From NCBI RefSeq assembly GCF_009935845.1, contig NZ_QWEK01000010.1, positions 1 to 47,805 on the forward strand: 47,805 nt of DNA, written 5' to 3'. The position numbers and the translations under genes were made by a program. Below the pieces are notes generated by a model. The model worked only from the letters and a program-made list of their open reading frames with translations. It had not been told where the DNA came from and did no database searches. Origin of the DNA: Pseudoflavonifractor sp. 524-17 (GTDB lineage Bacteria > Bacillota > Clostridia > Oscillospirales > Oscillospiraceae). Positions 20,190 to 24,033 of the stretch are shown here, one piece after another; position 1 is the stretch's first letter; each line of letters starts with the position of its first letter.

Positions 20190-20405
20190 GTGGCTGAAAG
20201 CGAATTCCCAAAGAGGCTGAGAAGACTGAGAGAAGAGCAGCGCAAGAGCCGTAAAATTGTTTCGGAGCTGTGCGGACTTCCATCAGATGCTGTACGGAGG
20301 TATGAAAGAGGGGAATCAAAACCGACAATGGATGCGCTGATTAAGATTGCGGACCATTTCGAGGTATCACTTGATTACCTGACCGGGCGCATAAATTATC
20401 GATAA
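20190..20405 (+). CDS. XRE-family HTH regulator
   Basis: A 71-residue HTH protein from GTG 20190: FPKRLRRLREEQRKSRKIVS, then LPSDAVRRYERGESKPTMDA, then LIKIADHFEVSLDYLTGR. It closes the early operon, just before the non-coding block, and could control entry into late transcription. A GGGGGA site precedes the start, which lies 1 bp after the previous stop. Confidence 0.85.
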   Translation: MAESEFPKRLRRLREEQRKSRKIVSELCGLPSDAVRRYERGESKPTMDALIKIADHFEVSLDYLTGRINYR

Positions 20406-20418
20406 AATTTTTAAAATT

Positions 20419-20474
20419 CCCCTTTTAAGGGGATCTTGGATGACCCGCATGGTTTACACTGACTATGCGGGTCA
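20419..20474 (+). terminator. pair of hairpins ending the early operon
   Basis: CCCCTT-TT-AAGGGG (20419-20432) is followed by a 10-bp stem TGACCCGCAT/ATGCGGGTCA (20441-20450 with 20465-20474). Neither has a long T run, so termination is likely but not certain. A third stem, GGGCGG/CCGCCC with outer CCTG/CAGG, lies at 20515-20557. Confidence 0.5.
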
Positions 20475-20566
20475 GTCTATGCCCCGTGTTCATTCCATCC
20501 TCCTCCCTCCTTGCCCTGTAATGGGCGGTGGGGCAAACGCTTCGCCGCCCTATCAGGGTCCTCCAT

Positions 20567-20642
20567 GCCGCTGTAGCTCAGTTGGAAGAGCAGCACGAGG
20601 TACGCCTGTGGACAGTCGACCGTTCGAGTCGGTCCAGCGGCT
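20567..20642 (+). tRNA. tRNA-like element A (aberrant anticodon arm)
   Basis: The acceptor stem GCCGCTG/CAGCGGC is perfect, TA follows at positions 8-9, the D arm GCTC-AGTTGGAA-GAGC is canonical, and the T arm GACCG-TTCGAGT-CGGTC is perfect. Between them are 25 nt without a normal anticodon stem-loop. The best fold is CAC-AGG closing on a TACG tetraloop with CCTGTG. Position 33 is not T in any fold. No CCA is encoded. It is either a mutated tRNA or a tRNA mimic. Confidence 0.6.
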
Positions 20643-20644
20643 GT

Positions 20645-21240
20645 TTGTGTCGTAGTTCTCGGCACAGCATTTACATTGCCCCTTGTGATAGCCTCCCACG
20701 ATCCGGGATGTGCCGGTAACATGCGGGCGCAAGAGAAACCGCTCCAAAGTACACGGAGCAGCTTTAAACTTCCTGGTAAATGTCAGGCTCTTGAAATCAG
20801 GGGATAGAAGAATAGACGGGGGCGCCGCTCGCTACGGCAGAAGGCAGGATAAACACCGGAGACCCGTCCTGCGGAAAAGTTTAAAGCAAGAACCGCCAGC
20901 CCCGCGGGACGGAATGGGGCAACCTCCGCTGAAAATCGCTCTTCTGCTGAAAGGTTTCGACTACTGGCCTTATGAATTAGGGTTCGGCGATGGGGAGAAC
21001 GGGATAAGCGGAAAATATGGGACGCGCACAATGTTGTTAAGGGCGGCCGCCTGGTAGGGAGTGCGCAACGCTGGAGAGGTCGAGAGGGAGAGTATCCAGC
21101 AAAAAATGAGCGCCGGGTCATATCAAAAAACGGCCAGCCGGGGAAGGACCGGCACGGCGCTCAATATACGCAGAAACCCGGTGCATGAGCCGGAAACTGC
21201 GCCAAGAGAGGAAACGCATGGCGGGATATAACCCCCGCCG
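20645..21240 (+). ncRNA. probable large structured non-coding RNA
   Basis: No convincing gene exists here, yet the DNA is dense with complementary arms: CGGCACA/TGTGCCG (20660/20709), GCTCC/GGAGC (20741/20755), GCAGGA/TCCTGC (20844/20867), GCCCC/GGGGC (20899/20916), GCTGG/CCAGC (21070/21096), an 8-bp GAGCGCCG/CGGCGCTC (21108/21155) enclosing GCCGG/CCGGC (21137/21149), and GGCGGG/CCCGCC (21220/21234). A-rich loops separate the arms. Size of about 600 nt, phage setting and tRNA-like neighbours recall the ROOL and GOLLD classes of ornate phage RNAs. Membership cannot be shown from reading alone. The exact ends are guesses. Confidence 0.6.
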
Positions 21241-21275
21241 CCTCTCCAATCAAATTATGAAAGGAGACCTCTCGA

Positions 21276-21980
21276 ATGAACAAACTGCAAATTTTCAACA
21301 ACCCCGAGTTTGGGACTGTCCGCACCGTGGAGATTGACGGTGAGCCGTGGCTGGTGGGAAAGGACGTGGCATCGGCACTTGGGTATGCCGACACAAAATC
21401 TGCCCTGTCTGACCATGTCGACGCCGAAGACAAGCGAATAATCCAAAGGGGGCAAATCGCCACCTTAGATATTCCGAACCGAGGGCTGACCATCATCAAC
21501 GAGAGCGGCCTGTATTCGCTGGTTCTCTCCAGCAAGCTCCCTGGCGCAAAGAAGTTCCGCCGGTGGGTAACAGCAGAGGTCCTACCATCCATCCGAAAGG
21601 ACGGAAGGTACCAGATTAGGCCCATGACCAGTTATCAGCAGCAGAATATCTGCATCCAGAAGGCAAAACTGCTCAATCAGATCGCGTCTGAGTACGATGG
21701 TACATACAAGCAAGTCCTTCAGGCCTACGCCACAAAGGAACTCACCGGAGAATTTCTCTTGCCTCTGCCTGCACTGGAGCGTAAGACCTACTCTGCTGCC
21801 GAGATCGGTGTGGCGCTCGGGATATCCGCCCACAAGGTCGGAACGATGACCAACTCGAACGGCTTGAAAACCGATAAGTACGGGAAATGGTTCGTGGACA
21901 AGTCCGCACACTCCAGCAAAGAAGTGCAGTCGTTCCGATATTATGAGAGTATCATACCCATTCTGCGGGAACTGTTATAA
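21276..21980 (+). CDS. BRO-type phage antirepressor
   Basis: A 234-residue protein. The N-terminal BRO domain has LQIFNNPEFGTVRTVEIDGE, VGKDVASALGYAD and YSLVLSSKLPGAKKFRRWV. The C-terminal domain (LTGEFLLPLPALERKTYSAA, then EIGVALGISAHKVG and SSKEVQSFRYYE) is the antirepressor C-domain also found in the ORF6N protein at 31160. Such proteins counter the lysogeny repressor. ATG follows AAAGGAGA. It is framed by the structured RNA region upstream and tRNA-like elements downstream. Confidence 0.9.
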   Translation: MNKLQIFNNPEFGTVRTVEIDGEPWLVGKDVASALGYADTKSALSDHVDAEDKRIIQRGQIATLDIPNRGLTIINESGLYSLVLSSKLPGAKKFRRWVTAEVLPSIRKDGRYQIRPMTSYQQQNICIQKAKLLNQIASEYDGTYKQVLQAYATKELTGEFLLPLPALERKTYSAAEIGVALGISAHKVGTMTNSNGLKTDKYGKWFVDKSAHSSKEVQSFRYYESIIPILRELL

Positions 21981-22018
21981 CATTTCGGCGGCGCGGGACC
22001 TGCGATAGTGCCACATAT

Positions 22019-22074
22019 GCACAGTGCAGGTAGCCGGGGTCGCTCCCCGCAAGGTTCAAGTCCTTGGCTGTGTC
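22019..22074 (+). tRNA. tRNA-like element B (no D arm)
   Basis: A perfect T arm (CAAGG-TTCAAGT-CCTTG, 22050-22066) is preceded by a GGGG-CCCC hairpin (22036-22049). GCACAGT (22019-22025) can pair along all 7 positions with GCTGTGT (22067-22073), using two G-U pairs. There is no D arm; 9 nt (GCAGGTAGC) replace it. An alternative fold pairs GCGGGAC (21993) with GTCCGC (22072) and treats the GGGG-CCCC hairpin as a Leu-type long variable arm. Confidence 0.45.
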
Positions 22075-22140
22075 CGCAAGCAGAGCGGGCGGGTCGCGAA
22101 CCACAAACCTGCAAAATAGCCAACAAAGGAAGGAACCATA

Positions 22141-22443
22141 ATGCAGCAAGGCGAAAGCCCCTATGCAGAAACAGCGTTGGCTATAAATACGGGCGCATGT
22201 ACCAAGGCGGCGAGGGAGACTCCAAATCTCCTTGCGGTGGGTTCGATTCCCTACCGTCCGTGCCAGGCCAGGGAGAAGAAACCGATGATAGCCGCAGATT
22301 TATTTGCGAACAGATTCGGTGTGAGTTGGTCGGAGGTCTCCTTGGTCTTATACGGCCCATTAGCTCGAAGGTCGAGCAACCGGCTTTTAACCGGTAGGCC
22401 ACCAGCAGAGGATTGGGGGAGAAAAGAAAATGAAGGGAATTGA
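22141..22443 (+). CDS. uncertain 100-residue ORF overlapping tRNA-like elements
   Basis: ATG 22141 has a good GGAAGGA site 6 bp upstream, and the frame stays open to 22443. However, it runs through tRNA-like elements C and D, and its translation there has the look of tRNA shadow (NLLAVGSIPYRPCQ, LARRSSNRLLTG). A second ATG at 22284 gives a 53-residue product. Translation is possible, but I would not assume a real protein. Confidence 0.25.
   Translation: MQQGESPYAETALAINTGACTKAARETPNLLAVGSIPYRPCQAREKKPMIAADLFANRFGVSWSEVSLVLYGPLARRSSNRLLTGRPPAEDWGRKENEGN
22189..22265 (+). tRNA. tRNA-Trp(CCA)-like gene with weak D arm (element C)
   Basis: The acceptor stem ACGGGCG/CGTCCGT (one G-U pair), discriminator G and encoded CCA are complete. 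The anticodon arm GGAGA-CTCCAAA-TCTCC is canonical, with T33 and anticodon CCA (Trp). The T loop TTCGATT is canonical, but the T stem needs a bulged T. The D arm has at most two or three pairs (CC-AAGGC-GG), and position 8 is C rather than T. It could be functional; it is the most tRNA-like of the group. Confidence 0.6.
22354..22404 (+). tRNA. tRNA-Lys(UUU)-like element lacking the T arm (element D)
   Basis: GGCCCAT is followed by TA, a perfect D arm (GCTC-GAAGGTC-GAGC), A, and a perfect anticodon arm (ACCGG-CTTTTAA-CCGGT) with T33 and anticodon TTT (Lys). Then comes AGGCC plus ACCA, i.e. four bases that can pair with the 5' GGCC, a discriminator A and CCA. The whole T arm is missing. It looks like a tRNA-Lys with a clean internal deletion that kept both ends. 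Confidence 0.5.
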
Positions 22444-22657
22444 AGTAAGGCACGGAAGCAAAATACAACTTTGCAAAAATGACAAAAGCAAAATCAAGGC
22501 ATATCAATGCGAACTTTGTGCGCACTTTGATGTTGATGATTTATCCGACGAAACCTTTTGTCATCGGGGATTTTGGCCCGGATGTGGTGATCCAGATGGG
22601 TGCAGGGAAGCATTTGAACCAGTAAAAGGGCGAGGAATTATCGGGGCGCATTTATAA
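22430..22657 (+). CDS. cysteine-cluster protein
   Basis: A 75-residue protein from ATG 22430, with a GGGGGAGAA site upstream. The N-terminal stretch is basic. CELCAHFDVDDLSDETFCHR and GCGDPDGC carry at least six Cys and two His, a probable zinc site. It belongs to the C-x2-C-x-H-F group of small proteins scattered in this phage (24038, 47709 and others). Overlaps the next ATG. Confidence 0.65.
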   Translation: MKGIEVRHGSKIQLCKNDKSKIKAYQCELCAHFDVDDLSDETFCHRGFWPGCGDPDGCREAFEPVKGRGIIGAHL

Positions 22658-23501: not shown

Positions 23502-23526
23502 ATGATTTTGAGGAGAGGTGGTGGGG

Positions 23527-24033
23527 ATGGCATTAACGCCGAAGCAAAAACGATTTGTACAAGAATATCTGGTGGACCTCAATGCCACTGCCGCTGCAAT
23601 CAGGGCCGGATACAGCAAAAAGACGGCTGAGGTTATTGGTTATGAAAACCTTAGAAAACCTCAGATTGAAACTGCAATAAATCAGGCCATACAGGAGCGC
23701 GAGAAACGAACCAAAATCACCCAGGATATGGTTTTGAAGGAAACCGCGAAATTGGCTTTTTTCGATATTCGGAAGATGTTCGATAAGAACGGGAAGCCGT
23801 TAGACATATCAAAGCTGGACGACGATACCGCCGCTGCGCTGGTTGGCCTAGATGTGCAGGATGTTGCAGATAGTGATGGGAACTATGTGGGATTCATCAA
23901 GAAATATAAGCTGGCCGATAAAGTTAAGGCTCTTGAGTTGCTTGGAAAGCATTTCGGCACATGGGAGCCGCAGAACAAACAACAGACCTCCATGGAGGAC
24001 TTGACCGCGCTGGCGGAGAAATTGAGGGTGTGA
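23527..24033 (+). CDS. terS: terminase small subunit
   Basis: A 168-residue protein. ATG 23527 is preferred over GTG 23518, which lies within the GGAGAGGTGG site. The opening LTPKQKRFVQEYLVDLNATA, then IRAGYSKKTAEVIGYENLRK, is the classic Terminase_2 DNA-binding domain. The rest is helical, for oligomerisation and TerL contact. It recognises the pac/cos site. Two small Cys-rich genes separate it from terL. Confidence 0.93.
   Translation: MALTPKQKRFVQEYLVDLNATAAAIRAGYSKKTAEVIGYENLRKPQIETAINQAIQEREKRTKITQDMVLKETAKLAFFDIRKMFDKNGKPLDISKLDDDTAAALVGLDVQDVADSDGNYVGFIKKYKLADKVKALELLGKHFGTWEPQNKQQTSMEDLTALAEKLRV

Follow-up and report, generated by a model that had tools for sequence, protein, structure and literature searches.

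Phage tRNA clusters of the T4 type hold tRNA genes with additional small RNAs in between, and the C4 antisense RNA is located in a leader, its precursor being processed by RNase P. In phages P1 and P7, C4 is able to base-pair in the region of the antirepressor's ribosome binding site (PMC12197685). The RNAs ROOL and GOLLD are located near tRNA islands (PMC12286853). With regard to processing, bacterial RNase P cuts hairpins made of an acceptor stem, a T stem and a T loop (PMC11143913, PMC4919922), less accurately than complete substrates; the B. subtilis enzyme prefers U(-1) and A(-2), and the 3′ RCCA of a substrate base-pairs with the RNA of bacterial RNase P (PMC4919922). Here we analyzed a 47,805-nt stretch of Pseudoflavonifractor sp. 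524-17 (contig NZ_QWEK01000010.1, from position 1), hereafter “the window,” in which a first-pass annotation had singled out the interval 20645–21240 as a possible ROOL/GOLLD-like RNA. We present the locus as a candidate modular leader array akin to phage tRNA/sRNA clusters and to antirepressor-controlling RNAs, in which a two-part hairpin, E1, is a candidate new antirepressor leader element. Like the T4-type clusters, the array mixes tRNA genes with extra small RNAs; unlike them, it has units that lack whole arms, recurrent minihelices and a position between early genes and terminase genes.

A small HTH gene (20190–20405) precedes the interval, and an antirepressor gene with a Bro-N domain (21276–21980, on the forward strand, as are the array features and the terminase small subunit gene below; Pfam PF02498, E 1.1e-26, with matches to PHROG anti-repressor families) follows it. 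The array spans roughly 20.42–22.40 kb, with the early genes on one side and the terminase genes on the other, and is followed by the terminase small subunit, at the start of the packaging genes (23518–24033, phrog_51, E 3.5e-42), the large subunit (24398) and the portal (27110). Read by hand, the units of the window come in the order T1-E8-E0-E9?-E3-hairpin-E2-E1-antirepressor-E4-TL2-tRNA-Trp-like-E6-TL3. Ahead of the first unit stand two hairpins (20442–20473 and 20523–20550, together 20442–20550; folding windows 20420–20539, z -5.1, and 20500–20619, z -2.4), and a G+C hairpin can be seen by eye at the equivalent place in other arrays. A weak promoter-like site, CTGACC-18-TAAAAT, with 9 of 12 consensus matches, lies at the head of the array (20379–20408); the 2.4-kb region holds four promoter-like sites vs 1.5 expected, and extended -10 boxes of the TGCTAYNAT type, also weak, were noticed by eye in sister arrays. 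Among named relatives, those closest to the interval are Flavonifractor phage Chenonceau, which has a similar layout, and metagenome-assembled contigs labelled Oscillospiraceae and Oscillibacter (L071, L080); they suggest a host of the Oscillospiraceae type. On the minus strand at 573–607, close to the contig's left end, there is the 3′ end of a tRNA, with T arm and CCA end (GGAGGTC..AGTCTCCACCA), as a tRNA attachment site of the prophage would lead one to expect.

That the interval lacks a credible gene was borne out: five ORFs in and around it (20710–21054, 21061–21228 and 20440–20652 on the plus strand, 20783–21118 and 20477–20719 on the minus strand) gave no PHROG or Pfam match at E ≤ 0.1, and with these scans empty the coding reading was dropped. 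Unusual hairpin density across the interval, which had also been claimed, was not confirmed. The 616-nt fold reached -222.9 kcal/mol vs -210.5 ± 10.3 in 20 dinucleotide shuffles (z -1.2, with 3 of 20 folding at least as well), the minus strand gave z -2.2 (0 of 20 as good), and 2 of the 12 120-nt windows inside the interval had z < -2, the 12 as a group being no different from 60 control windows elsewhere in the contig (Mann-Whitney P 0.52); when the 51 windows of 20420–22540 were taken together, the comparison with the controls gave P 0.07. What stood out in these windows were the stretches of about 20420–20620 and 21060–21340, the part from 20660 to 21060 being unremarkable. The nested hairpin placed at 21108–21162 by the first-pass annotation is real (21107–21163; z -4.6 and -4.7 in two 120-nt windows). 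No convincing homologue of it was found; G153 and G208 gave weak matches of 34 nt (E 6e-4), both at its 3′ edge.

The size of the interval, its phage location and its tRNA neighbors would suit a new ornate RNA of the ROOL/GOLLD kind, folded as a single unit across the interval, and like ROOL and GOLLD it combines a phage or prophage setting, tRNA islands nearby and several hundred nucleotides without genes (PMC12286853). Unlike them, it consists of separate small modules with no extended fold. The models for ROOL, GOLLD, HEARO and OLE gave no match even at E ≤ 5 over 20400–22500, nor did those for C4 and c4-2, and in the whole 47.8-kb window no Rfam family reached its gathering score. Searches for relatives of the whole interval gave a single match of 55 nt among 50,697 phage records and four matches in 300 family genomes, the window's own included, and no homologue spans it. 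Homology came in separate blocks, with no extended conserved structure of several hundred nucleotides among them: about 213 of the 596 nt, summed from BLAST blocks against fetched loci, are conserved in related phages, and about 380 nt had no homologue in the searched sets. Because its pieces occur separately and in differing orders in relatives, the interval is part of an array of small modules, and a single ornate RNA is very improbable. The stretch 20645–20888 (about 240 nt) had no homologue in phage records, in the 300 family genomes or in the fetched loci, and mostly shows no excess of structure.

The modular organization is apparent from the BLAST blocks shared with fetched loci, which cover 20564–20593 (T1), 20889–20935 (E0), 21015–21101 (E3), 21162–21298 (E2, E1 and the antirepressor start), 21988–22020 (E4), 22187–22265 (tRNA-Trp-like), 22277–22339 (E6) and 22350–22400 (TL3). 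The partner contigs change from block to block, and both the order and the presence of units vary among relatives. E0 (20889–20935) is 82–87% identical to L133, L125 and L148 (E 7.9e-7 to 4.1e-4), and its sequence motif is also present in L122–L124. E3 (21019–21100), with AUAU ahead of it, is 94% identical over 87 nt to L124 (E 5.7e-34), and a palindrome change from GGCGGCCGCC to GGTGGCCACC preserves its pairing. The hairpin E4 (21990–22013; GGCGC-loop-GTGCC-A) is 87–97% identical to L125, L124, L148, L149, L131 and L142, the last of which has GCGCC in place of GTGCC with the pair kept; a further match, L151, was judged to be chance. E6 (22277–22339) is 98.4% identical over 63 nt to L148, where, unlike in the window, it sits ahead of E5 and E2. 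Two units are tentative: E8 (20740–20760), a short hairpin CGCTCCAAAG..CACGGAGCA common by eye to L125 and L148 and not among the BLAST matches, and E9 (20925–21012), a closing helix TCCGCT...AGCGGA whose ends match those of L131, L133 and L149 by eye and in a MAFFT alignment, and whose interior is hardly alignable.

Unit orders in the sister arrays, again read by hand, are T1-E0-E9-E2 in L133, T1-E0-small ORF-E2 in L080, T1-E8-E0-E6-E5-tRNA-Leu-like-E2-E4-tRNA-Met in L148 and T1-E7-E0-E9-E5-tRNA-Leu-like-small ORF-E2-E4 in L131. No base separates E1 from E2 in the window, L010, L046, L119, L120, L122, L123 and L124, whereas in L125 and L080 they are kilobases apart. Near-identical contigs did not count as separate genes (L049 with L040; L048 and L050 with L046; L012, L013, L115, L116 and L118–L120 with L010). 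Two Rfam families belong to the sister arrays, and neither reaches its gathering score in the window: E5 is DUF3800-VIII RNA (RF03075; 67.2 bits in L148, 65.6 in L131), and int-alpA RNA (RF02996) lies between E1 and the antirepressor gene in Chenonceau (L040, 49.6 bits) and L044 (45.1 bits). DUF3800-VIII also occurs in L159–L161 and L164, in L159 and L161 without other visible units; in L161 (1477–1543) it lies outside any array, directly ahead of a gene that resembles, by eye, one for a terminase small subunit. The array of L148 had no match in phage records; that of L131 matched two Bacillus phages there, through its DUF3800-VIII unit only, and in 250 family genomes gave seven matches at E ≤ 0.001, of which four are DUF3800-VIII, one is part of the tRNA-Leu-like unit, and two (L162, L163) were dropped as chance. 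A small ORF of about 54 codons (..LLICCSSP..VILTP.T.GENLTRPE..) recurs in the arrays of L125, L124, L131, L149 and L080; it was not noticed in the window, and two copies had no PHROG match.

The tRNA-like elements that had been reported on both sides of the interval do occur upstream (T1) and downstream of the antirepressor gene, although ARAGORN calls T1 only. This unit (20567–20642), named tRNA-Val(tac) by the program, has complete acceptor (7/7), D (4/4) and T (5/5) stems in the window and 4/5 pairs in the anticodon stem, and the Rfam tRNA model did not list it over 20400–22500 at E ≤ 5. T1 is the leading unit in L125, L131, L148, L149, L133, L080 and the window; the Chenonceau copy, whose acceptor sequence differs, was assigned by position and architecture. 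On dissection of eight copies, all acceptor pairs form in six and 6/7 in two, and the T stem is complete in all eight (4 or 5 bp, as cut by hand). The D stem is 4/4 in five copies, 3/4 in two and absent in Chenonceau, and the segment that replaces the anticodon arm ranges from 1 to 52 nt. Decoding by T1 is unlikely, judging from the sequence, because the base before the called anticodon, position 33, is not U; it is G in the window and C in L125, whose T1 ARAGORN calls tRNA-Cys.

Further tRNA-like units follow the antirepressor gene. TL2 (22019–22073; script scan and sequence) has an acceptor of 7/7 pairs and a T arm but no D arm, with AUAU ahead; a tRNA-Trp(CCA)-like unit ending in GCCA (22189–22265) is 86% identical over 80 nt to the tRNA-Trp of L125, which ARAGORN calls, unlike the window copy; and TL3 (22354–22404) is tRNA-Lys-like, with no T arm and an ACCA end, matching L124 (97% over 34 nt) and L148 (80% over 51 nt). 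A complete tRNA-Lys(ttt) is present in L108. By eye, the tRNA-Leu-like units of L131, L124 and L148 keep the acceptor and T arm, their anticodon region being swapped for sequence of variable length. The recurrent loss of the anticodon arm with the acceptor and T arms kept raises the question of what use non-decoding tRNA mimics are to a phage. One answer is none: the locus could be a phage tRNA cluster decaying by deletion and recombination, with arm-less tRNAs as pseudogenes, conserved pieces as debris and perhaps only E1 of importance. That the missing arm differs between units, that 20645–20888 is without homologue and that overall folding is ordinary all fit such decay. We nevertheless consider it unlikely, given that T1 holds 6 or 7 of its 7 acceptor pairs and its T stem in every copy as its lower half turns over, that E3 is so close to its L124 counterpart and that, as described below, E2 covaries and A(-2) precedes nearly every unit.

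E2 (21170–21204) is a minihelix like an acceptor/T arm, ending in GCCA; the model R2, whose training set includes the window, matches it at 21164–21204 with 53.9 bits. Eleven sequences, selected by the loop and mostly also by an inner stem of 4 bp or more, were aligned; inspection by eye removed 14 of the 22 viral stretches that showed the pattern (L132, L134–L141, L143–L147). The structure comprises a 7-bp stem, a bulge of 0–2 nt, 4 bp and an 8-nt loop, which reads UGCAUGAG in 9 of the 11. Pairing was possible in 86.8% of cells, vs 77.5% in shuffles and 25–47% (maximum 46.9%) in slid versions, and 7 of the 11 pairs show changes on both sides, vs a shuffle mean of 3.5, a count reached by none of 500 shuffles. 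Five of these seven pairs belong to the outer stem, on which the sequences had not been selected, and two of the outer pairs fail to form in 5 and 6 of the 11 rows. The covariation in homologues that had been called for as a check is thus seen for at least one element, E2. When R2 was run on 49 sources, it recovered the training copies and Chenonceau (L040; 26.7 bits, E 1e-5), the next match having 17.9 bits (E 0.013). In 250 family genomes five matches reached E ≤ 0.001: the window's own, genome G071 and three judged to be chance (L154–L156). In G071 (L153, 30.1 bits, not in the model) E2 stands alone ahead of a terminase small subunit gene.

In its architecture E2 resembles the model hairpin substrates of RNase P, which join an acceptor and T stem-loop with CCA. 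The features of such substrates, namely a 7-bp stem on a shorter stem, RCCA, U(-1) and A(-2), are found in most E2 relatives, RCCA being present at the 3′ end in 7 of 11 and G(+1) in 10 of 11; in the window, E2 shows the GCCA end and A(-2), but its -1 base is C and just 4 of the 7 outer pairs form. Unlike those laboratory constructs, E2 has a loop, UGCAUGAG, that is not a T loop, and is known from sequence. A bias ahead of the units points the same way. Among 35 hand-placed unit 5′ ends in 12 arrays (tRNAs, tRNA-likes, E2 and E3, leaving aside E0, E1 and E4–E9), A(-2) occurs in 34, A(-4) in 32, U(-1) in 29 and the full AUAU in 22, and the six units of the window have these in the proportions 6/6 for A(-2), 4/6 for U(-1) and 2/6 for AUAU. 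Copies of T1 and E2, which are related, dominate this list, so that binomial values are descriptive only. Thirteen other tRNAs in the fetched loci lean to U(-1) (9) and A(-4) (10), with A(-2) in 6 and AUAU in 2, and the linker therefore speaks of tRNA-type processing only. Cleavage of the array by RNase P would be the specific reading that these sequence features suggest.

Immediately behind E2 in the window is E1 (21205–21248), the two-part hairpin of the antirepressor leader, with the layout GAGAGG-AAACGCAU-GGCGGG-loop-CCCGCC-G-CCUCUC and an internal loop holding an SD-like GAGG and an AUG. We searched for its 17-base core and found it in 11 viral stretches, of which 10 were kept (L051 was dropped), and in 51 stretches of genome contigs, of which three (L062, L071, L080), those with the whole hairpin, were kept; more loci came from degenerate patterns and from model R1, which gives 66.4 bits for the window, itself in the training set, a set chosen by the core. 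Matches without the core (AACGCATG; L109–L114, L128, L129) were judged to be chance, as was a pattern match, L121. R1 gave 10 matches at E ≤ 0.001 in 400 family genomes, of which the four with the core were judged real; together with the two real R2 matches in 250 family genomes, this shows the array units to be rare. In 394 genomes of the order there were five matches, the window's own included; two of them (L126, L127), from other families of the order and outside the R1 model, carry the hairpin 65 nt ahead of Bro-N genes. We also ran R1 on the window and 32 further contig pieces, 33 sources of which almost all had been picked up through their antirepressor. Its hits were strong in seven, three of them near-identical, and in just two, the window and L024, does E1 lie directly ahead of the antirepressor that had been matched. 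We found no description of E1 or of such arrays in the openly licensed literature.

E1 precedes antirepressor genes of several families. Domains of this kind were found in 17 of the 20 genes scanned behind it, with the N-terminal families Bro-N, Phage_pRha, AntA and P22_AR_N, and the other three encode an HTH_Tnp_1 protein, an HNH endonuclease and one protein of no recognised kind; L123 and L124 were left out of the scan since their ORFs begin like those of L125 and L122, and L107 has no long ORF. The distance from the start of E1 to the antirepressor start codon is 64–72 nt (in L042 counted to an inner ATG), and 151 nt (L040) and 159 nt (L044) where int-alpA intervenes. In L117 (1834–1876) E1 stands ahead of a NUMOD4/HNH homing-type endonuclease gene in place of an antirepressor gene. 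Since the variation that keeps standard pairs is of the G-U type, with no two-sided compensatory change in the loci compared and one pair broken in L019, L023 and L024, E1 is not proven by covariation, and the case for it as a predicted RNA element is carried by its spacing and by the neighboring genes. The AUG in the loop opens a reading frame (MAGYxPAASP in many loci), and a leader peptide was considered. We set it aside as the main explanation because the frame breaks and the hairpin stays: the window, L125, L123, L108, L122 and L124 have one extra nucleotide that changes the frame, and in L044 and L117 the peptide stops after MAG. Initiation at this AUG may possibly serve to open the hairpin.

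Being inverted repeats upstream of the terminase small subunit gene, E1 and E2 could also act at the level of DNA, as a packaging (pac/cos) or regulator-binding site. The G-U type of variation in E1 and the compensatory changes in E2 suit RNA better, the tRNA-like units have CCA ends, and E1 has other positions too, such as in L125 and L080, where it follows a gene that resembles, by eye, the one for the large terminase, all of which leaves a DNA element with a very low probability in our estimate.

A candidate target of E1 lies just downstream, where the Shine-Dalgarno sequence GGAGA of the antirepressor gene is followed by a CCTCTC stretch (21260–21273). The 5′ arm of E1, GAGAGG, is complementary to CCTCTC at 21268–21273 in all six bases. 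Across 18 loci the summed match between 5′ arm and pre-start stretch was 81.5, vs 75.7 when partners were permuted (P 0.003, related loci being treated as independent) and 52.6 (maximum 63) with shuffled stretches. Ten of the 18 loci reach at least 5 of 6 (with G-U counted as half), L041, L107, L117 and L126 score 3 or less, and in L108 and L122 an AAGAGG arm pairs with CCTCTT, which may be one event. By analogy only, this recalls C4, in that E1 is complementary to the antirepressor ribosome binding region; unlike C4, E1 is proposed to act in cis in the same leader, and it precedes several antirepressor families.

These relations could also mean that the leader is the only functional part, E1 (with E2) being a cis-acting translational control element carried along with antirepressor cassettes and the rest a passenger. 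The kinds of gene behind E1 and its nearly constant spacing from them would agree with this, as would the presence of E1 with its antirepressor gene away from the array in L125 and L080. Against it, E0, E3, E4, E6, T1 and E2 are conserved partly without E1, and five loci that carry array units (L131, L133, L142, L148 and L149, all with E2) contain no E1 according to R1, as L153 also has E2 without E1. On balance such a restriction of function to the leader seems rather unlikely.

The explanation that we favor, with a confidence somewhat above even, is an RNase P-punctuated leader of exchangeable RNA units whose E1 tunes antirepressor translation. The interval would be the central part of an RNA-unit array of about 2 kb in the prophage of an Oscillospiraceae-type host, with tRNAs, tRNA-likes lacking one arm, the E2 minihelix and other conserved hairpins as units that phages swap as modules. 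The whole array would be transcribed as a leader; RNase P would cut on the 5′ side of each tRNA-like unit, behind a brief linker rich in A and U, in many cases AUAU, and processing of the 3′ side at the CCA would define the other boundary, breaking the leader into small stable RNAs. In the window, E2 and then E1, with no gap between them, would form the leader of the antirepressor mRNA, where the 5′ arm GAGAGG may pair either with its own 3′ arm or with the CCTCTC just before the start codon. With E1 closed, the ribosome binding site would be free; with E1 open, the 5′ arm would lie on CCTCTC or the 3′ arm on the Shine-Dalgarno sequence, a direction that is our guess. Against this leader model stand the number of loci, 10 of 18, that pass the complementarity threshold and the antirepressor relatives, the majority, that have no E1.

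More tentatively, as a possibility to which we give less credence, the array may represent an undescribed type of phage locus: a leader of interchangeable cassettes delimited by RNase P (cut-down tRNAs, CCA minihelices and small RNAs, int-alpA and DUF3800-VIII included) that are reshuffled, with E1 as a portable riboregulator among unrelated antirepressor genes. Were it so, int-alpA and DUF3800-VIII, two orphan Rfam motifs, would gain a common setting, RNA arrays of phages close to the late genes, along with a processing mechanism that can be put to the test, and E1 would be a candidate family of cis-acting RNAs that control antirepressors, which influence lysogeny, in prophages of gut bacteria. 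Skipping-rope and DUF3800-VIII RNAs are annotated within one gene-poor stretch of the SPbeta-like Bacillus phage Goe14 (L157, 1682–3053), where R1 and R2 found nothing, and this suggests that mixed RNA stretches are wider spread.
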